Shown here piece by piece: positions 1 through 8,008 of a stretch of 8,075 bases of DNA. Numbering within the stretch: the stretch's first letter is position 1; each line of letters opens with the position of its first letter. Position numbers and translations under genes: made by a program. The notes beneath the pieces were generated by a model, which saw nothing but the letters and a program-made list of their open reading frames with translations, ran no database searches and was not told the origin of the DNA. Origin of the DNA: a bacterium (GTDB lineage: Bacteria > CG2-30-53-67 > CG2-30-70-394); assembly GCA_024278555.1 (NCBI GenBank), contig JAJRSX010000069.1, forward strand, positions 1-8,075, in the 5' to 3' direction.

Positions 1-288
1 CACCACCACCACCCAGTCGGGCCGCTGGTCGATGCAGACCGGCTCGAAGCGTCGGATCGTCTCGGCGGTCTGCACCGCGTGGCTGCCGGAGCCGACCCCG
101 AGGTCGATGTCCGGCTTGGGGATCCCCAGCTCCTCGAAGAAGAGCTTCGACATGCGCTGGTCGTAGTGCTGGCCGGTGTGGACCAGGTACGGCGCCAGCC
201 GCTCATCACCCGCCATCGCCGCCATGATCGGGGCGATCTTCATGAAGTTGGGCCGCGCCCCCGCCACCAGGATGACCTTGATTGCCAT
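1..288 (-). CDS. wecB: UDP-N-acetylglucosamine 2-epimerase (non-hydrolysing), N-terminal part, cut by the window edge
   Basis: The enzyme interconverts UDP-GlcNAc and UDP-ManNAc in the cytoplasm, supplying ManNAc-type sugars for surface polysaccharides. Only the first 96 residues are present, ending exactly on a codon at the left edge. Visible family signatures are the N-terminal nucleotide-binding loop GARPNFMKIAP (residues 10-20, equivalent to GTRPEAIKMAP in E. coli WecB), HTGQHYD (37-43), the GSGSHAVQTAE stretch (66-76) and the start of the PDWVVVV strand (90-96). The ATG is preceded by a strong GGAGGAG site. The gene starts 38 bp after the stop of the ExeA-like ATPase on the same strand, so the two are very likely co-transcribed. 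The family is secure. The exact sugar pathway, and whether the gene is intact beyond the edge, cannot be seen. Confidence 0.92.
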   Translation of the reverse strand, partial: MAIKVILVAGARPNFMKIAPIMAAMAGDERLAPYLVHTGQHYDQRMSKLFFEELGIPKPDIDLGVGSGSHAVQTAETIRRFEPVCIDQRPDWVVVV

Positions 289-293
289 GGGTT

Positions 294-300
294 CTCCTCC
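294..300 (-). promoter_or_regulatory. Shine-Dalgarno site of the wecB gene
   Basis: On the minus strand this reads GGAGGAG, five bases before the ATG at 288. It fixes the wecB start and contrasts with the ATPase gene just upstream, which has no comparable site. Confidence 0.8.
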
Positions 301-326
301 GCCACTCGCCGGATGTTCGCCTCTGC

Positions 327-1502
327 CTACCAGCGCCAGAAGCGGCGGCGCTCCCGGTCGTTCGCCGGGTCGAGGTGCGTCGCCCGGTCGCCGGCGTCGC
401 CGTGGCGATCGACCCGCTCGGCGAGGCGACGGACCTCCTCCAGGAGCTCCCGGTGGTGGTCGTCGCTGTCTGCCGCGTGGGCGGCGAGGGCCTCAATGGT
501 GGTGGTGAGACGCCCGAGGAGGTCGACCAGCTCCCGACTCGGGCCGCCCCCTCCCCGCCCGGCGAGGCCGGCCTCGCGGACCGCAACGGCGACCCCCTCG
601 ACCGCGGCGGTGAGGCGGGTGAGGAGCGGGGTGAGGCCACCCCCCGCCGGCGTCGGCAGGCCACCGGCCGCCGCCTCCGCCACCGGCGGTTGCGGGGCGA
701 AGGCGGCCTGCTCCGCCACCACCTCCTCCAGGAGGGCGGCGTCCACACTGTCGCGCTCGTCGGCGAAGGCGGCCACCAGGGCGGTGTCGCAGAGCTGGTT
801 GATCAGGCGCGGGACGCCGTGAGTGTGGCGGTAGATCAGCGGCACTGCATCATCGGCGAAGAGGTCGAACCGCTGAGCCCCGGCACACTCGAGGCGGTGG
901 TGGATGTAGGGCGCCACCTCCTCCTCATCCAGCGGCGCCAGGTGGTAGGTGACCGCGACCCGCTGGCGAAGCTGCTCCAGGTCGGGCCGGGCGAGGGTCT
1001 TCCCGAGGCCGGGCTGGCCGGCGAGGATGATCTGCAAGAGCGGCTGGGAGCCGGTCTCCAGGTTGGCGAGCAGGCGCACCTGTTCGAGGACCTCGGGGGC
1101 GAGGTTCTGCGCCTCGTCCACCATCAGGACGACCCGGCGGCCCGCCTGGTACTCGGCGAGCAGGAAGTCGTAGAGGGCGTTGAGGCGATCGGCGTCGCTG
1201 TCGACGGTCGCCGCCACCTCGAACTCGGTGAGGATGAGGGTGAGGAACTCGCTCTTCGTCAGGTTGGTGTGGAAGACAAAGGCGACATTCACGTCCTCCG
1301 GCAGCCGCCCGAGGACGTAGTTCAGCAGGGTCGTCTTGCCCGCCCCCACCTCCCCCACCAGGACCACGAACCCCTTGCGCTCCAGGAGACCGTACTCGAG
1401 GGTCGCCAGGGCCCGGTCATGCTTCGGGCTCAGGTAGAGGTAGTCCGGATTCGCCTGAATCCGAAACGGGTTCTCCCGCAGGCCGAAGTGGCGCTCGTAC
1501 AT
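327..1502 (-). CDS. ExeA-like AAA ATPase of a polysaccharide locus (XrtA-system-ATPase-like)
   Basis: 391 residues. The opening MYERHFGLRENPF followed by LYLSPKHDRALATLEYGL is the typical start of the ExeA/GspA-type ATPase family and supports the ATG chosen, although no good ribosome site precedes it. Walker A is GEVGAGKT (50-57), Walker B VVLMVDEAQ (124-132; D129, E130), a sensor-1-like strand is at ILAGQPGL (159-166) and a sensor-2-like GVPRLIN at 229-235. No transmembrane segment is apparent. After about residue 265 the AAA core gives way to an Ala/Pro/Gly-rich linker and a predicted helical, coiled-coil-like stretch (about 322-368), ending in a basic-aromatic tail RERRRFWRW. The peptidoglycan-binding domain of true ExeA is not evident. 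Relatives are common in EPS loci with chain-length proteins and BY-kinases, where their role is unclear; energising assembly or export is an inference. It is co-directional with wecB and separated from the kinase gene by a repeat-filled gap. Confidence 0.88.
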   Translation of the reverse strand: MYERHFGLRENPFRIQANPDYLYLSPKHDRALATLEYGLLERKGFVVLVGEVGAGKTTLLNYVLGRLPEDVNVAFVFHTNLTKSEFLTLILTEFEVAATVDSDADRLNALYDFLLAEYQAGRRVVLMVDEAQNLAPEVLEQVRLLANLETGSQPLLQIILAGQPGLGKTLARPDLEQLRQRVAVTYHLAPLDEEEVAPYIHHRLECAGAQRFDLFADDAVPLIYRHTHGVPRLINQLCDTALVAAFADERDSVDAALLEEVVAEQAAFAPQPPVAEAAAGGLPTPAGGGLTPLLTRLTAAVEGVAVAVREAGLAGRGGGGPSRELVDLLGRLTTTIEALAAHAADSDDHHRELLEEVRRLAERVDRHGDAGDRATHLDPANDRERRRFWRW

Positions 1503-1531
1503 GGGGGGGCTCGCCGCGCTCGCCCGGGGTT

Positions 1532-1734
1532 GGGGGCTAGGGACTAGGGGCGAATGGCCGCTGCGCGGCTGGAAATTATTCTTCGGGTACGACTCGTCGT
1601 CATCTTTTTCAGCCCGAGGGGCTGCCCTTCCCTAGGAGTCTGTCGGACTTAGGCGATCGTCGCGAGGGAAAGCGGATCTCGGCCAGAATTGTGCATAAGT
1701 CCGACAGGCTCCTAGCCCCGAGTCCCTAGCCCCC
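1532..1734. repeat. Outer inverted repeat of a MITE/REP-like intergenic element
   Basis: The left arm, 1532-1550, reads GGGGGCTAGGGACTAGGGG. The reverse complement of 1716-1734 is identical except for one base (C for A in ACTAGGGG). The arms enclose 165 bp with no coding potential that itself contains a second inverted repeat. Size, palindromic ends and absence of a transposase fit a MITE or a composite REP-type element. Target-site duplication is ambiguous: CCGGGG occurs next to both ends but is part of a GC palindrome. Confidence 0.75.
1632..1715. repeat. Inner 20-bp inverted repeat with 44-bp spacer
   Basis: The left arm 1632-1651 (CTAGGAGTCTGTCGGACTTA) and the right arm 1696-1715 are reverse complements with one mismatch (T versus C at the eighth base). 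The spacer is 1652-1695. As RNA this could form a long stem between the kinase and ATPase cistrons. As DNA it resembles the terminal inverted repeats of a small non-autonomous element. The right arm directly abuts the right arm of the outer repeat (1716-1734), so the two are nested without a gap on that side. Confidence 0.85.
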
Positions 1735-1736
1735 CG

Positions 1737-1755
1737 GGGCGCGCGTAGGGCGCCC
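1737..1755 (-). other. GC hairpin just after the kinase stop codon
   Basis: GGGCGC (1737-1742) and GCGCCC (1750-1755) are perfectly complementary around a 7-base loop. The hairpin starts 3 bases after the TAA of the kinase gene. No T-tract follows on the minus strand, so it is not a canonical intrinsic terminator. It may protect the 3' end or be part of the neighbouring repeat. Confidence 0.45.
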
Positions 1756-1758
1756 GCC

Positions 1759-2559
1759 TTAGCCGCCTGGCACCTCCAGACTTGCCGTCAGCACCGTCCC
1801 CAACAGCTTGTCCTGGGGCAAGACCGAGAGCGCCTTGGAGAGAGCGTCGGAGTGGGTGGCCCCCTCCCGAACCACCAGCAAGACGCGGTCGACAAAACGC
1901 GACAGGATGATCGGATCGGCGGCCCCTTCCACACCGGGGCCGTCGAAGAGGATGGTACGGTCCGGGTAGCGCCCCTTGAGCTCCGCCACCAGGTCGCGCA
2001 TCCGCTGGGAGTCGAGGAGCTCGGCGGCGCCGCCGTTGGAGCCGACACCGGCAAACAGGGTGAGCTTGCCGACGTCGGTACGCAGAAGGCAGTCGGAGAC
2101 CTCGGCGTTGCCCTCGAGGTAGTCGGCGAGACCGCGCTCGGGGGTAAGGCCGAGGAGCTGGGCGACCGCCGGGGCGCGCAGGTTGGCGTCCACCAGGAGG
2201 ACCGTCTGGTCCATCTCCCGAGCCATGGAGACGGCGAGGTTCAGGGCGGTGAGGGTCTTGCCGTCGCTGCTCCCCGGGCTGGTGATGAGAAAGCAGTTGT
2301 CGCCGGTCGCCTGGGCGTGGGCCCGGAGCTGGGTACGCAGCTTGCGGTACTGCTCCGCCACCGGGTGGTCGTCGAGAAAGGCGACCAGGCGCCGCTCGCG
2401 GGCGTGGCTGAGGTCGACCGCGACGCGCTGCGCCGGACGGTCGGTGGTCGTGGGGGCGGGGGCGGCGGGCTCGGTCGCCACGGTCGCCTCGGCACCCTCC
2501 ACCGGGGTGTCTCCATTCTGCTGCTGCGCCTTGTCCAGCGCCTTGCGTAGGCGGCTCAT
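1759..2559 (-). CDS. BY-kinase-type tyrosine autokinase / polysaccharide co-polymerase ATPase, without a tyrosine tail
   Basis: 266 residues, the cytoplasmic ATPase partner expected for the Wzz-type membrane protein encoded just upstream. Such CpsD/Wzc-like kinases control polymer length through cycles of autophosphorylation. Order: basic N-terminus MSRLRKALDKAQQQ, a Pro/Thr/Ala-rich linker (about 17-46), PVAEQYRKLRTQL (66-78, the usual E-x-[FY]-R-x-[LI]-R-T motif), P-loop TSPGSSDGKT (93-102, K101), Walker A' VLLVDANLRAP (120-130) and Walker B ILFDGPG (203-209). The P-loop departs from the usual PGEGK, the second Walker A' Asp is Asn126, and the C-terminus (LTASLEVPGG) has no tyrosine; the protein has only Y71, Y147 and Y198. 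The ATG at 2559 is chosen because it overlaps the upstream TGA as ATGA and gives the family's typical start; the frame is open further upstream, but only inside the co-polymerase gene. It resembles exosortase-locus autokinases. Real kinase activity is uncertain. Confidence 0.88.
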   Translation of the reverse strand: MSRLRKALDKAQQQNGDTPVEGAEATVATEPAAPAPTTTDRPAQRVAVDLSHARERRLVAFLDDHPVAEQYRKLRTQLRAHAQATGDNCFLITSPGSSDGKTLTALNLAVSMAREMDQTVLLVDANLRAPAVAQLLGLTPERGLADYLEGNAEVSDCLLRTDVGKLTLFAGVGSNGGAAELLDSQRMRDLVAELKGRYPDRTILFDGPGVEGAADPIILSRFVDRVLLVVREGATHSDALSKALSVLPQDKLLGTVLTASLEVPGG

Positions 2560-4337
2560 CGTTCCTCTCCCGTGGACTGCGTCGGTGGCGGCGAGGGCGT
2601 CCGCTCCGCCTCCTCCTCGGCGGCGGTGACCTTGCCGGTTACCTGCAGCCAGAGGACGTCGAGCGGCTTGACCGCGAAATGGACGGTGGCCACGGCGGCG
2701 ACCATCACCCCGACCACCGTACCGGCGGCAAACCACCGACGACGCCGACGACGGCTGCGGTCGGCAGCGGTCTCGATGGCGCCGATCACCGCCAGCACCG
2801 GCAGGCGGGCGGCGTGGGCCAGACGGTTGGCGGAGTAAAAGCCGGTATCCAGTGCCTCGCGCGCCGCTGCCACACCGACCCCGACGCCGACCCCGAGGAT
2901 CAGCCCAATGAGGGTGAGGGCGAGGCGATTCGGCTTCACCGGCTCCTCCGGGAAGACCGCCGGGTCGATGATCGAGAACCGCTCCGCCATCTGACCGCGC
3001 TCGAGGTCGATGGAGGCCTTCGCCTCCTCCAGCTTCTGGCGCATGTCGCGGTAGCGCGCGGTGCGGTTCGCCTTCGCCTCCATGAGGCGGTCGTACTCGG
3101 CCCCCACCTTGGGGGTGAGGAGGATCTGCTTGCGGAGCCCCTCGATCCGCTCCTCCACCGCCTTCACCTCCTGGTTGAGGGCGTGGATATTGGTCTCGAC
3201 CCCGGCGAGCTGGTTCTGGGTGGCGATGTAGTAGGGATCGTTGGCAAGCGAGCTCTCCTCCGCCTCCATCGCCGCCTGAGGGTCGAGGGCGTGGATCTGC
3301 TTGCGCAGGTCGGCGACCTTCGCCTCAATCGGTGCCTTCGCCTTCTCCCCCTCGGCGGAGCTGAGGGCGAGGCGGGTGTTGAAGAGCTCGTGGAGGAGGT
3401 TGTCGACCTGCTGCTGGGTCGCCGCGTCCGCCTCCACCTCGGCGATCTCGCGGCGGACCTTCACCACATCCGGGTGGTCGGGAGAGTACTTGGAGAGGAG
3501 CTGCGCCTCCTGCAGGCGGAGCTCCTTGAGGCGGTCCTTGGCGGTGGGCCCCTGCTTGCGGGCCGTCGCCTGGCGGGTGAAGAGCTGGGCGGCGAGCTGC
3601 TCGCGCTGTGACTTGAAGTCGGCGATGCGGGTGAGGAGGGCGTCGCGGTCCCGCGACATCCGCTCCATCGTCTGCATGTTGATCATCTTCTGGTCGGGCA
3701 GGGAGCCGAGGTACTTCTCCTTGAGTTCGACGAGCTTGGTGTCGATCGCCCTGATCTCTTCCTGGAGGCGGGTCGTCTCTTTCTCCAGGAATTCGGTGGA
3801 CGCCTTGGCGTGCTCCTCACGCGCCTTGAGGTTTTGCGACAGGTAGAAGGTCGCCAGGTTGTTGGCCACCTGCTGCACCTTCGCCGGGTTCTCCCCCTGG
3901 TAGACCACCTCGAAGGCGATGGTGGCGGTCATCGGCCTGCCGGTGCGCTTGTCCACCACCTCGGTGGAGATCGGGTTGAGCTGGATGTCCTCGCGGAAGC
4001 CGTCGATCACCTCCTCGGTGGTCTCCTTCTTCCGCTCCTTCTTGTAGAGGTCGAACCGCTTGATCAGGTCGAGGAGGCTCTGCCGGCTCATCACCTGCTG
4101 GGTGATCATCTGCAGCCGCTGCTCGACGAAGTCGGTGACCGTGGTGCGTACCATGTCCGGCGGGATCTGCTGCTCCTCCACCAGGACCGTGGTCTTCGCC
4201 TCGTAGACCGGCGGCAGGAGCAGGGCGAGCGCCACCGCCACCGCGAAGACGACGACAAAGGTGAGGACGAAGGCTCCCGCGCGGCGGCGAGCAATGGCCA
4301 GCACTTCGGGGAGGCCTGTCGTGTTTTCCGATTCCAT
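2556..4337 (-). CDS. Wzz/GNVR-family polysaccharide chain-length determinant (co-polymerase)
   Basis: 593 residues. An inner-membrane protein with a large periplasmic coiled-coil domain that sets exopolysaccharide chain length with the partner kinase encoded next. A first transmembrane helix is at about 21-43, followed by the Wzz start PPVYEAKTTVLVEEQ. Long charged heptad-rich helices span about 165-450 and include SPDHPDV (285-291), usual in this family. The GNVR-like segment VGAEYDRLMEAKANRTARYR is at 411-430. The Pro-rich motif FPEEPVKPNR (462-471) precedes a second membrane helix (472-491, LGVGVGVGVA). An unusual third hydrophobic segment (536-555) follows an Arg run (RSRRRRRRW, 527-535) and leads to an acidic, Pro/Thr-rich tail. 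The ATG at 4337 is preferred over one 30 bases upstream because AGGAGGAAGA stands directly before it. The gene ends overlapping the kinase start by 4 bp, consistent with a Wzc split into two polypeptides. Confidence 0.92.
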   Translation of the reverse strand: MESENTTGLPEVLAIARRRAGAFVLTFVVVFAVAVALALLLPPVYEAKTTVLVEEQQIPPDMVRTTVTDFVEQRLQMITQQVMSRQSLLDLIKRFDLYKKERKKETTEEVIDGFREDIQLNPISTEVVDKRTGRPMTATIAFEVVYQGENPAKVQQVANNLATFYLSQNLKAREEHAKASTEFLEKETTRLQEEIRAIDTKLVELKEKYLGSLPDQKMINMQTMERMSRDRDALLTRIADFKSQREQLAAQLFTRQATARKQGPTAKDRLKELRLQEAQLLSKYSPDHPDVVKVRREIAEVEADAATQQQVDNLLHELFNTRLALSSAEGEKAKAPIEAKVADLRKQIHALDPQAAMEAEESSLANDPYYIATQNQLAGVETNIHALNQEVKAVEERIEGLRKQILLTPKVGAEYDRLMEAKANRTARYRDMRQKLEEAKASIDLERGQMAERFSIIDPAVFPEEPVKPNRLALTLIGLILGVGVGVGVAAAREALDTGFYSANRLAHAARLPVLAVIGAIETAADRSRRRRRRWFAAGTVVGVMVAAVATVHFAVKPLDVLWLQVTGKVTAAEEEAERTPSPPPTQSTGEER

Positions 4338-4339
4338 TC

Positions 4340-4347
4340 TTCCTCCT
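4340..4347 (-). promoter_or_regulatory. Shine-Dalgarno site of the co-polymerase gene
   Basis: It reads AGGAGGAA on the minus strand, two bases before the ATG at 4337 (core AGGAGG four bases before). It decides the start against the upstream ATG at 4367, which would add ten residues (MGTAPPLGGR) unlike the family N-terminus. Confidence 0.8.
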
Positions 4348-4374
4348 AGCGGCGGCGCGGTGCCCATCCTGGCT

Positions 4375-4390
4375 CCGCGTCTCTCCGCGG
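4375..4390 (-). other. Small intercistronic hairpin between TPR and co-polymerase genes
   Basis: CCGCG (4375-4379) and CGCGG (4386-4390) pair around a 6-base loop in the 72-bp gap. There is no T-tract, so termination is unlikely. The gap otherwise holds only the ribosome site of the next gene. Confidence 0.35.
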
Positions 4391-4409
4391 CCTCATCGTC
4401 GTTCGGTCC

Positions 4410-6512
4410 TTAACCCTTCAGTCTCTTTTGTAGCGCTTCTGCCGCCTTCACCCACGGTCCGCGCGGCTTGGCGGCGAGGCACTGGTCGATCGCCTGAAGC
4501 GCGGCGTCACGCTCGCCGGCTGCGTCGGCAATCGCCGCCTGGTGGTAGCGCACGATGGCCGGAATCGCCTTCGCCTCCTTGCCCTCCAGCGCCTTCTCCA
4601 GGATCGCCCGCGCCTCCTTCGCCTTGCCCTGCTTGTAGAGGACCCAGGCGTAGGTATCGGCGACGTTGGCGTCCTTGGGGTAGCGCTCCATGAGCCCCTT
4701 GGCGAGGGTGGCGGCACGCTCCAGCCGCTGCCCCATCTCCGCCAGGCGGTAGGCGAGGTTGTTCGCCGCCATCGGGTCGTCGGGCTTGAGCTCGAGGATC
4801 CGGTCGTAGGTGGCCACCGCCTCCTTGCCCCTGTTACCCCACTCGTAGAGGCGCGACAGGGAGGAGAGGAGCTGCACCGACTTCGGGGTCGCCTCCACCT
4901 GGCTTTCGAGGATGGTGATCCCCTTGTCGAGGTTGCCGGTGCGCGCCTCCAGCACCGCCTGCTGGGTGGCGTAGATCGGGTTGGTGGGGAACCGCTCCAC
5001 CAACGGGTCGATCACCTTGTGCGCCTCCTCCGTCTTGCCCTTCTGGAGCAGCAGGGAGAGGAGCATCTCGATCCCCTGGGGCGGCGGCGCGTTCATCTCC
5101 CCCAACGGCTCCAGCCGCGCCAGGGCGGTGTCCGCGGCCTTGTCCTTCAAGTAGAGGCGGGCGAGCTGGATGCGCGCGGTGGTGTTCTCCGGGCTCAGCT
5201 CCACCACCTTCTCCAGCTCCTGGCGGCCGAGGAGCTCCTCGCCGAGGGCGAGGTGGCAGCCGGCGAGGCCGGCGTGGATCTGCGGATCCTGCGGCGCCTC
5301 TTTGAGGAGCTCGCGGAAGTGGTCCAGTGCCCCCTGGGCATCCTTGCTGAGGAGCTCCACCTGCGCCTGCAGGACGCGGCCATCGAAGTCCTCCTCGCTG
5401 GCGGCGAGGATCTGATCGACCACCGCCTTCGCCTTGTCGAGGTGCTGGAGCTGGATATCGAGGCGGGCAAGGGAGGTGTGGACCGCCGACGGCGGCTGCA
5501 CCCGCTTCGCCGCCCGCTCCAGGACCGCCACCGCCTCGTCGATCTTCCCCTCCGCCGCCTTGATCCGGGTGAAGGCGGTGATCAGGCGGACATCCGGCTG
5601 CTCCTGCTCGATCCCCGCCACCAGCATCTCCTCCGCCCGCGCCACCTGCCGCAGCCGGAGATAGGTGTCGGCGGCCAGGAGCCGCCCCTCGGGGGGGAGG
5701 TCCGGGTTGGCGACAAAGGCGTCCACCACCCGCTGCACGTCGTCGAGCCGCTTCTGTCGCCCGTAGTAGCCGATAAGGCCGGCGGTGAGGCGGACGTCGC
5801 CGGCGAGCTTCTCCGGCGCCCCGGTGAAGGTCGCCTCCGCCCCCCTGGTGTCACCCCGCTCCTCCTGGATGCGGGCGAGCATGAGCAGCGCATTCACCGA
5901 CTCCGGCTGCGCGGTCAGGGCCGCCTGCGCGTACCCCTGCGCCTCCTCGAGATGCTTGCCCTTGATCGCCATCTGGGCCAGGGCCAAATTCACCCCGGCC
6001 CGCTCCTCCGGCTTCAGGTCCCGGCGGTCGAGGAGGGCCTTGAGGAGCGCCGCCGCCTCGTCACCGCGGTCGCGAAGCTGGAGGGAGGCGGCCTCAACGG
6101 TGGCGATCCGGTAGCTCTTGCGCGCCTCCTCCGGGAGGCCGCCGAGGACCTCGTCGAGGCGGTCGAACTGGCGCGCCGCCACCAGGATATTGGCCAGGGG
6201 GACCACGAAGTCGAGGTCGGTGGGGGCGAGCTTGGCGGCCTTGTTGTAGTAACCCAGGGCGGAGCGGTAGTCGCGGCTCTTCAGATAGGTCTCACCGAGG
6301 AGGCCGTAGGCCTGCGCGAACTTCGGATCGATCTGTGCCGTGTTCTTCAGCTCGATGATCCCCTCGGCGGACTTCCCCTCCTCGAGATACCTCTTTGCCC
6401 GCTCGAAGTGGGCGTCGCGACGCGACTCCCGCGAGCCGCACGCAGAGAGCAGGGTGAGCGATGCCACCACCAGGGTGATCAGGGCGAGACGTAACAGACG
6501 AACCGTATTCAT
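4410..6512 (-). CDS. TPR-repeat lipoprotein, PrsT-like
   Basis: 700 residues. The N-terminus has a basic start, a hydrophobic stretch and lipobox LLSAC (cleavage before C25), so the product is a lipoprotein. Gly at +2 is compatible with outer-membrane sorting under the E. coli rule. From about residue 33 to the end the protein is built of degenerate TPR units, e.g. FAQAYGLLGETYLKSRDYRS (65-84) and a late PDDPMAANNLAYRLAEMGQ followed by VADTYAWVLYKQGKAKEA. TPR lipoproteins of this size recur in EPS loci, notably PrsT of exosortase/PEP-CTERM systems, which is usually longer (around 900 residues). By analogy it may scaffold assembly or secretion components in the periplasm. It is the first gene of the minus-strand operon and divergent from the REC-LpxC gene. 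The ATG has AAGGAG five bases upstream. TPR and lipoprotein calls are firm; the PrsT subfamily is an inference. Confidence 0.9.
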   Translation of the reverse strand: MNTVRLLRLALITLVVASLTLLSACGSRESRRDAHFERAKRYLEEGKSAEGIIELKNTAQIDPKFAQAYGLLGETYLKSRDYRSALGYYNKAAKLAPTDLDFVVPLANILVAARQFDRLDEVLGGLPEEARKSYRIATVEAASLQLRDRGDEAAALLKALLDRRDLKPEERAGVNLALAQMAIKGKHLEEAQGYAQAALTAQPESVNALLMLARIQEERGDTRGAEATFTGAPEKLAGDVRLTAGLIGYYGRQKRLDDVQRVVDAFVANPDLPPEGRLLAADTYLRLRQVARAEEMLVAGIEQEQPDVRLITAFTRIKAAEGKIDEAVAVLERAAKRVQPPSAVHTSLARLDIQLQHLDKAKAVVDQILAASEEDFDGRVLQAQVELLSKDAQGALDHFRELLKEAPQDPQIHAGLAGCHLALGEELLGRQELEKVVELSPENTTARIQLARLYLKDKAADTALARLEPLGEMNAPPPQGIEMLLSLLLQKGKTEEAHKVIDPLVERFPTNPIYATQQAVLEARTGNLDKGITILESQVEATPKSVQLLSSLSRLYEWGNRGKEAVATYDRILELKPDDPMAANNLAYRLAEMGQRLERAATLAKGLMERYPKDANVADTYAWVLYKQGKAKEARAILEKALEGKEAKAIPAIVRYHQAAIADAAGERDAALQAIDQCLAAKPRGPWVKAAEALQKRLKG

Positions 6513-6517
6513 TCCAG

Positions 6518-6523
6518 CTCCTT
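6518..6523 (-). promoter_or_regulatory. Shine-Dalgarno site of the TPR lipoprotein gene
   Basis: It reads AAGGAG on the minus strand, five bases before the ATG at 6512, supporting this start and hence the complete lipoprotein signal peptide. Confidence 0.75.
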
Positions 6524-6541
6524 ACCGCGGGTGTACCTCCG

Positions 6542-6592
6542 ACAATGGTCGATCAGTTTGCACCATTTGTGGGGCGGGTGGCGACAAACGGT
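6542..6592 (-). promoter_or_regulatory. Three alternating ACAA(A)YGGT half-sites upstream of the TPR gene
   Basis: ACAATGGT (6542-6549), ACCATTTGT (6562-6570) and ACAAACGGT (6584-6592) are versions of one motif in alternating orientation, with centres about 21 bp apart (two helical turns). This could be an operator for a dimeric regulator. In a minus-strand transcript, 6592-6584 can pair with 6570-6562 over nine base pairs (one G-U), while 6570-6562 can instead pair with 6549-6542 with one bulged base, giving two mutually exclusive hairpins. Whether the transcript starts upstream of this segment is unknown. Confidence 0.4.
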
Positions 6593-6628
6593 CGTCCGCT
6601 CTTCGGCGCCCTGCCTCCGCCGCTCAAC

Positions 6629-6657
6629 TTGGATCGTCCCCAAGGGGTGCGTAGGAT
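6629..6657 (+). promoter_or_regulatory. Weak candidate sigma-70-type promoter for the REC-LpxC gene
   Basis: TTGGAT (6629-6634) and TAGGAT (6652-6657) are 17 bp apart, matching the consensus at 3 of 6 and 4 of 6 positions. It would give a leader of roughly 80 bases before the ATG at 6743. In GC-rich DNA such matches are weak evidence. Confidence 0.25.
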
Positions 6658-6742
6658 AGACCACCTCGCGCCGATTGCTCACCCGGTACCCGTTGCGGTC
6701 ACGACGATCCGGGACAAGCGGTAAGCGCCACAAGGGAACTCC

Positions 6743-8008
6743 ATGGCTGCCACCATCTACATCGTCGACGACGAGCCGAACATCCTCACCACCCTCGACG
6801 GGTGCATGCGCGACGAGGGGTACGCGGTGACCACCCAGAGCGACCCGATGCAGATCGAGAAGGACCTGGAGACGGTCCATCCCGACGTGGTCCTCCTCGA
6901 CATCTGGATGCCGGCGCGCGACGGCATCGAGGCGCTCTCCATCATCAAGGGGATCGACCCGACCATCGAGGTGATCATCGTCACCGGCCACGGCAATATC
7001 CGCACCGCCGTGGAGGTGACCCGGCTGGGCGCCTACGACTTCGTGGAGAAGCCGATCAACCTCGACACCCTCCTGGCGGCGGTGGACGGGGCCCTGGCCC
7101 GCCGCGGCGGCGAGCGGCCGGCGGCCAAGCCGCTGCCGGCGGCCGGTGGCCAACCCGAAGCCCGCCGGGGCGGCCGCCACCAGCGCACCCTGCGGCGCAG
7201 CGTCGTGGTCGGCGGCATGGGGCTCCACTCGGGGGAGAAGACCGGGGTTATCCTGTCGCCGCTGCCGCCGGGCTCGGGAATCCTCTTTACCGACATCAAC
7301 CGCGGCGACACGGTGCCGGCCCTGGTCGACTACGTGGACACCACCGGCTACGCCACCACCCTGCGCCACGGCACCACCGTGGTCCACACCACCGAGCACT
7401 TCCTCGCCACCCTCTCCATGTACGGGGTCACCAACTTGATGGTGAAGGTCCACGAGGAGCTGCCGATCATGGACGGCTCAGCCGCGGAGTTCTGCCGGGT
7501 GGTGGAGGAGGCGGGGATCGAGAAGCAGGCGGCGGAGATCTCGCCCCTGGTCGTGGAAGAGACCTTTGTGGTGGGCGACGAGGCCAAGGGGGTCTACGTG
7601 AAGGTGGAGCCGGCGGACGAGCTCATCGTCACCTACACCATCGACTACCCACCGCCGATCGGCAGCGACACCCACACCTTCCACGCCACCGGCCCCGACG
7701 CCTTCTGCCAAGAGATCGCCCCGGCGCGCACCTTAGGCTTCCTCAAGGACATCGCCCAGCTCGAACAGATGGGGCTCGGCGGCGGCGGCCGGATGGACAA
7801 CTTCATCCTGGTAGACGACGTCGAGAAGAAGGTGCTCAACACCGAGCTCCGTTTCCCCAACGAGTTCACCCGCCACAAGATCCTCGACATCCTCGGCGAC
7901 TTCGCCCTCCTCGGCCGTCCGGTGCAGGCCCACATCACCGGCGTGCGCAGCGGCCACACGGAGAACTCCGCCATGGTCCGCAAGCTCGCCGCGCTCGGGC
8001 GCGGGTAG
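6743..8008 (+). CDS. lpxC: Response-regulator receiver domain fused to LpxC (UDP-3-O-acyl-GlcNAc deacetylase)
   Basis: 421 residues in one frame. Residues 1-120 are a receiver domain: acidic pair D9/D10, phosphoacceptor D53 in LLDIWMP, T81 in IVTGHG, K103 in EKP. GHGNIRTAVEVTRLGAYDF resembles NtrC/NtrX-type receivers. A Gly/Ala/Pro/Arg-rich linker (about 121-146) leads to a full LpxC domain (about 147-421), starting RTLRRSVVVGGMGLHSGEK. LpxC is the zinc deacetylase of the committed lipid A step. Aligned by eye to E. coli LpxC: E218/H219 (E78/H79) in TTEH, PIMDGSA (241-247), ART (328-330), H378/K379/D382/D386 in RHKILDILGD (H238/K239/D242/D246) and H405 in SGH (H265), so activity is expected. 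Only 16 residues follow H405, versus about 40 in E. coli, so the C-terminal FtsH degron of the E. coli enzyme is absent. AAGGGA lies five bases before the ATG. It is divergent from the EPS operon with no histidine kinase in view. Phosphorylation control of LpxC is inferred. Confidence 0.95.
   Translation: MAATIYIVDDEPNILTTLDGCMRDEGYAVTTQSDPMQIEKDLETVHPDVVLLDIWMPARDGIEALSIIKGIDPTIEVIIVTGHGNIRTAVEVTRLGAYDFVEKPINLDTLLAAVDGALARRGGERPAAKPLPAAGGQPEARRGGRHQRTLRRSVVVGGMGLHSGEKTGVILSPLPPGSGILFTDINRGDTVPALVDYVDTTGYATTLRHGTTVVHTTEHFLATLSMYGVTNLMVKVHEELPIMDGSAAEFCRVVEEAGIEKQAAEISPLVVEETFVVGDEAKGVYVKVEPADELIVTYTIDYPPPIGSDTHTFHATGPDAFCQEIAPARTLGFLKDIAQLEQMGLGGGGRMDNFILVDDVEKKVLNTELRFPNEFTRHKILDILGDFALLGRPVQAHITGVRSGHTENSAMVRKLAALGRG

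Follow-up and report, generated by a model that had tools for sequence, protein, structure and literature searches.

A receiver domain joined to LpxC in a family of NtrX-like fusion proteins: a candidate for two-component control of lipid A synthesis

The rec-lpxC locus and its product

The window (the whole stretch of 8,075 nucleotides that was analysed) is the entire contig C38 of a source genome of metagenome-assembled type, which comprises 3.06 Mb in 211 contigs and is estimated to be 100% complete with 0.68% contamination. Positions 1-6512 carry, on the minus strand, an XrtA/PEP-CTERM exopolysaccharide locus whose TIGR matches all fall slightly below their cut-offs, and on the plus strand lies a gene, rec-lpxC, that encodes a fusion of a receiver domain (REC) with LpxC. 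The features are as follows.

1-288, minus strand: UDP-GlcNAc 2-epimerase-like start, named by inspection only
327-1502, minus strand: ATPase (TIGR03015), slightly below cut-off
1759-2607, minus strand: tyrosine autokinase (TIGR03018), slightly below cut-off
2556-4367, minus strand: chain-length protein (TIGR03007), slightly below cut-off
4410-6512, minus strand: PrsT (TIGR02917), slightly below cut-off
6732-6737, plus strand: AAGGGA, probable ribosome-binding site judging from the sequence, 5 bases 5' of the ATG at 6743
6743-8008, plus strand: rec-lpxC fusion gene, a single open frame of 421 aa with Pfam REC and LpxC
6755-7084, plus strand: REC domain, residues 5-114 (Pfam PF00072, Response_reg, 95.7 bits, far above cut-off)
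6899-6901, plus strand: codon of D53, the predicted phospho-acceptor, Asp in 77/77 fusions
7097-7180, plus strand: flexible linker, residues 119-146, with nearly neutral dN/dS, in the place that AAA+ and HTH occupy in long forms
7181-7990, plus strand: LpxC domain, residues 147-416 (Pfam PF03331, 264.8 bits versus a cut-off of 27, profile positions 1-267 of 268)
7958-8005, plus strand: short C-terminus, 16 residues after the catalytic H405, no tail

The first-pass annotation had read this gene as a single open frame joining an intact receiver to a complete LpxC, and the 421-residue frame with both Pfam domains above their cut-offs bears this out, as does the finding that all the residues it had named (D9, D10, D53, T81, K103, E218, H219, H378, D382 and H405) lie at the numbers claimed. 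With the acidic pocket D9 and D10, the phospho-Asp D53, T81 and K103, the REC is by its sequence an ordinary receiver, and structure prediction gave it a fold of alternating beta/alpha order at a pLDDT of about 90. The LpxC half of the predicted structure had a pLDDT below 50, from an alignment with almost no LpxC depth. By every sequence test made, the fusion protein belongs to the LpxC family: it scored 235.5 with TIGR00325 (cut-off 187.25) and holds the active-site residues E218, H219, D244, H378, K379, D382 and H405. At residue 331 (7733-7735) the window protein has Leu, where 76/76 other fusions, that of the genus-mate included, have the Phe of an RTFGF motif and all 27 other LpxC sequences compared also have Phe.

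A search for a second, stand-alone lpxC, a check proposed with the first-pass annotation, found none in this source genome, and the fusion is its only LpxC. Both lpxA and lpxB are present in the genome, so that lipid A synthesis is to be expected, and the protein is likely to have UDP-3-O-acyl-GlcNAc deacetylase activity, since it is the sole LpxC of a genome that also has these two genes. The linker holds no ATG, GTG or TTG able to start a free LpxC, as judged by inspection of the sequence; the first internal candidates, GTG155 and ATG159, were rejected, as they would cost the first LpxC strand. A promoter scan, itself uninformative, found no sigma70-like site upstream of rec-lpxC.

The window protein is, from its sequence, neither an FtsH-type LpxC nor an LpxC-FabZ. 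It scored 201 with the LpxC-FabZ model NF009667, against a cut-off of 465, and ends after LpxC with no C-terminal FabZ domain. It was also correctly noted at first pass to miss the C-terminal extension: 16 residues follow H405, ending KLAALGRG, and the degron LAXXXXXAVLA is absent from them. The stretch after the catalytic His measures 13-32 residues in the fusions (median 18) and 17-192 in free non-FabZ LpxCs (median 43), a comparison between sequences that are related by descent and are not independent samples. The further idea that REC could replace proteolytic control thus stands in one part, as the fusions lack the long tail of free LpxCs, and is weakened in another, as the canonical FtsH degron is mainly a feature of Enterobacteriaceae (PMC12444477) and there was perhaps no FtsH control to replace.

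Distribution, forms and ancestry of the fusions

The genus-mate Nitrospirae bacterium CG2_30_70_394 (MNYW01000006.1) encodes the same fusion, 91% identical; a scan of genome contigs returned only this protein and free NtrX-like regulators. Between these two genomes of the genus, dN/dS (single-pair estimates) was 0.153 for REC (residues 1-118) and 0.146 for LpxC but 0.789 for the linker of 28 residues, so that receiver and enzyme are both under purifying selection and the linker hardly at all.

The taxonomic range of the architecture, which the first-pass annotation had left open, proved not to be restricted to the window's genus. The 77 fusions that we examined come from at least seven phyla, perhaps twelve: the window's own phylum and those of the genomes G012, G015, G049, G055 and G038 make six, and extra lineages bring the count to at least seven. 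Fusions are found in 4/4 genomes examined of G049's phylum, in nearly all LpxC-bearing genomes of the phyla of G012 and G015 (genomes with a match number 65/77 and 40/45, respectively), in two single-genome phyla (G055 and G038) and in further lineages outside these phyla (f107, f171, f97/f213/f273, f117, f121 and f128). LpxC at E<=5e-69 occurred in 25 genomes of a domain-wide sample of 386, with REC in the same frame in all 25; the remaining LpxC matches of that sample had E>=2e-59, and the best five of these were without REC. Genomes of the phyla surveyed normally carry a single LpxC. Across the 77 fusions, D53 and S/T81 are kept in all, D10 and K103 in 76 each, and the LpxC residues E218, H219, D244, H378, K379, D382 and H405 in every member. 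Two short fusions of lineage f128 have lost a pocket residue (D10 to S and K103 to R in L202 and L204, respectively), and may be a natural experiment on receivers unable to switch.

The fusions come in two forms. Long forms (about 670-766 aa), to which most examined fusions belong, run REC-sigma54-type AAA+-(HTH_8)-LpxC and are, by their sequence, NtrX-like regulators with LpxC appended at the end. Short forms (about 430-496 aa) run REC-linker-LpxC, the window protein being the minimal form at 421 aa with neither AAA+ nor HTH, and the residues between REC and LpxC number 21-55 in short forms, versus 276-348 in long forms. The GAFTGA-like sigma54-contact loop is found in 0/43 long fusions; in class-mates of the window genome, NtrX that is not fused has GSFTGA. 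Walker B is often altered in long fusions, Walker A is mostly kept and lost in one lineage, and the HTH is gone from several. Intermediates with an AAA+ region and no HTH occur in G012's phylum (L117, L118, L119, L121, L122, L124, L127, L135, L139 and L140), their LpxC beginning near residue 410-434, and among them the HTH has apparently been lost several times. Read from these sequences, evolution retains the receiver and the enzyme while the transcription module decays, and the window form is plausibly a reduced version of REC-AAA+-HTH-LpxC. Two points were thereby added to the first-pass annotation, the NtrX-like nature of the REC and this reduction. As for gene surroundings named by inspection only, a purN-like gene follows the fusion in the long-form lineages L063 and L060 (with purM too in L063), and the short form often lies downstream of purA in G015's phylum.

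Phylogenetic trees placed the fused LpxC domains in one clade against free LpxCs with full support. The window LpxC shares 49-58% identity with long-form LpxCs of other phyla and 37-39% with the free LpxCs of its own class; because it is nearer the former, the fusion was acquired by transfer or else inherited from an old ancestor. The window pair (the fusions of the two genus genomes) sits among long forms, apart from other short forms, with support of 97 in the REC tree, 82 in the LpxC tree and 90/94 in the joint tree, a placement suggesting repeated deletion of AAA+ and HTH. The best tree takes three changes for the short form, and a single clade of short forms was not rejected in a smaller set (AU p 0.27). 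The best match of the window REC was the NtrX model NF051870 (99.4 bits, over REC only), and in the REC tree it falls with the RECs of other fusions (97), near those of NtrX-like type, the deep forks being weak. Pfam found neither the AAA+ sigma54-activation domain nor a C-terminal Fis-type HTH in the window protein. Since these and a linked ntrY are all absent from the window form, the protein is not an NtrX, yet it is plausibly derived from an NtrX-LpxC fusion.

The NtrY-type kinase and how the receiver may act on LpxC

A gene for an NtrY-type kinase, NtrY being a predicted membrane kinase, adjoins the long fusion at 11 loci (G049, G060, G055, G038, G203, G467, G267, G401, G458, G331 and G193), lying immediately upstream, overlapping or a short distance off. 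It is located elsewhere in G012's phylum and in short-form lineages, and no ntrY stands beside the fusion in the window genome or in the genus-mate (G001). A single kinase gene of NtrY type occurs in the window genome (C73); it encodes complete HAMP, PAS, HisKA and HATPase and has no adjoining ntrX. This orphan (L145) has a glnD-like gene on one side and lpxA about 1.6 kb off on the other. We found no close unfused NtrX in the window genome, the best match being 45% identical to a class-mate NtrX, which is paralogue level (NtrX identity between class-mates is 75%). In six class-mates (family f2) LpxC is free and carries a long tail that ends A[ST]A, and those whose locus could be read have an ordinary ntrY-ntrX pair. 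From these comparisons the fusion seems to have taken the place of both NtrX and free LpxC in the window's genus. The prsT gene stands divergent beside rec-lpxC in both genus genomes (window 4410-6742; L064:10359-12128), and a PrsT-matching TPR protein lies 1.5-2 kb from ntrY in the class-mates G007 and G005 (L150; L172). Because a PrsT-like gene is thus near both rec-lpxC and the class-mates' ntrY, the fusion may sit where ntrYX once stood.

We propose NtrY as the phosphodonor mainly because an orphan NtrY-type kinase without a close NtrX accompanies REC-LpxC. That the C73 kinase itself serves the window protein is a guess, since its gene is unlinked and only 32% identical to the fusion-linked NtrYs, and many other kinases exist.

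The reading that we favour, and hold to be probable though well short of firm, is that phosphorylation of REC by an NtrY-type kinase controls LpxC directly, the protein being a response regulator with LpxC as its output. By this account LpxC was joined to the end of an NtrX-like regulator (REC-AAA+-HTH-LpxC), next to whose gene an NtrY-type membrane kinase is commonly encoded. Within the fusion family, sigma54 contact and DNA binding have decayed, and in the window's genus AAA+ and HTH are missing altogether, so that REC is tied to LpxC by a flexible linker. The NtrY-type kinase (in the window genome, perhaps the orphan C73) would phosphorylate D53, and the phosphorylated REC would then interact differently with LpxC, itself or the membrane kinase. 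This change would raise or lower LpxC activity, the sign being part of what we infer, so that the signal would set lipid A synthesis at the protein level. A loose linker makes allosteric coupling not obvious and leads us to favour a tethered REC over a rigid relay: the REC may cover and uncover LpxC, dimerise, or hold LpxC at the membrane kinase.

Direct post-translational control, which the first-pass annotation had taken the fusion to imply, gains independent support from the spread over at least seven phyla, an invariant D53, adjoining NtrY-type genes, the decaying transcription module, the lack of a second LpxC and a REC dN/dS like that of LpxC, and remains a prediction from sequence. Against it count the two short members that lost D10 or K103 and the short forms without a neighbouring ntrY. 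The wider proposition is that NtrY-type kinases set lipid A synthesis in one step via REC-LpxC, replacing both transcriptional NtrX control and tail-dependent LpxC turnover, in a lineage present in at least seven phyla; we regard its chances as evenly balanced.

Among the alternatives, the one that fares best has REC place or stabilise LpxC: by binding the membrane kinase or another partner, it would site the enzyme at the inner membrane, or shield it from or deliver it to a protease in a phosphorylation-dependent manner. A nearly neutral linker of 21-55 residues in short forms is what a tether would be expected to look like, the fusions lack the C-terminal tail seen in most free LpxCs, NtrY is predicted to be in the membrane, and in Neisseria meningitidis the LapB homologue Ght controls LpxC location (PMC12444477). 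By sequence alone this scheme cannot be cleanly told apart from the favoured reading, and we consider it possible but rather unlikely.

A historical accident, in which ntrX and lpxC became joined, LpxC was kept as essential and REC stayed on as a passive folding or solubility appendage, would fit the decay of AAA+ and HTH after fusion, which shows how pieces of a regulator can lose their use, and the loss of one pocket residue in each of two members. However, the phosphorylation pocket is kept in almost all 77 members across the phyla, and the dN/dS of REC is as low as that of the essential LpxC half, unlike AAA+, HTH and linker, making a passive REC quite improbable. A reversed flow, in which LpxC senses its acylated UDP-sugar ligand and, through the regulator, drives transcription or signalling, draws on the long forms, which keep the AAA+ region, mostly with Walker A, and in many cases an HTH-like end; but with the GAFTGA loop missing from every long form, the HTH gone in several, both modules absent from the window protein, and the LpxC catalytic residues invariant in what is the only LpxC, there is very little to be said for it. 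Finally, that a sequencing or assembly artefact joined two genes might be suspected of a window that is a whole contig of a fragmented metagenome-type assembly, but can be dismissed, in agreement with the first-pass annotation, because the identical junction recurs in the second genome of the genus at 91% identity and 77 fusions occur across many lineages.

Comparison with known systems

LpxC is a drug target. The step that it catalyses commits the cell to lipid A synthesis and sets the rate of the pathway; the known controls of the enzyme are proteolysis, protein partners and transcription. If the favoured reading is true, a two-component system would, throughout entire phyla, govern LPS output directly by way of a phospho-receiver covalently attached to the sole LpxC, and such systems seldom act on biosynthetic enzymes. 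What makes this hypothesis sharp and testable is that the transcription module has decayed repeatedly while REC and LpxC were kept. Response regulators with enzymatic output (CheB, PleD, RpfG) are well known, so that the kind of protein is not new. In these, too, REC is covalently joined to a catalytic domain, but their outputs are signalling or chemoreceptor-modifying enzymes, whereas LpxC, an essential enzyme of biosynthesis, has a metabolite as its substrate. We found no report of a REC-LpxC or NtrX-LpxC architecture, nor of LpxC as a response-regulator output, in the open-access literature, to which our search extended; subscription papers and InterPro-type databases may list it. A 2025 review expects undiscovered strategies of LpxC control outside Proteobacteria (PMC12444477).

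The LapB-FtsH-YejM system of Enterobacteriaceae (PMC12444477) is likewise a post-translational control of LpxC, but it uses a C-terminal degron and an adaptor; in the fusions that tail is lacking and a receiver is covalently attached. LpxC-FabZ (NF009667), which occurs among the relatives sampled, also combines LpxC with a second domain in one frame; there another enzyme has been added C-terminally, whereas in the proteins described here the N-terminus bears a regulatory REC. DVU2934 of Desulfovibrio vulgaris is a response regulator with lpxC as its only mapped target (PMC3333781), and thus likewise a two-component regulator dedicated to lpxC, but it binds DNA and acts on a separate lpxC gene.

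A further parallel is NtrY-NtrX of Rhodobacter sphaeroides and Caulobacter crescentus (PMC7240162, PMC12444477), which shares with the fusions an NtrX-like REC, an NtrY-type kinase (in the case of the long forms) and LpxC, or LPS amount, as the target. Loss of NtrYX in R. sphaeroides raised lpxC mRNA 8.8-fold and about doubled LPS with no NtrX binding at lpxC (PMC7240162), which by analogy would suggest that NtrY signalling restrains LpxC. In those species the effect on lpxC transcription is indirect and one among dozens of genes, and a review treats NtrYX as a transcriptional influence only (PMC12444477). In the proteins described here, unlike NtrY-NtrX, regulator and LpxC share one polypeptide from which the sigma54 loop has gone, and the window form is without a DNA-binding part; the fusion unites in one protein an NtrX-like regulator and LpxC, the same partners as in the Rhodobacter effect.
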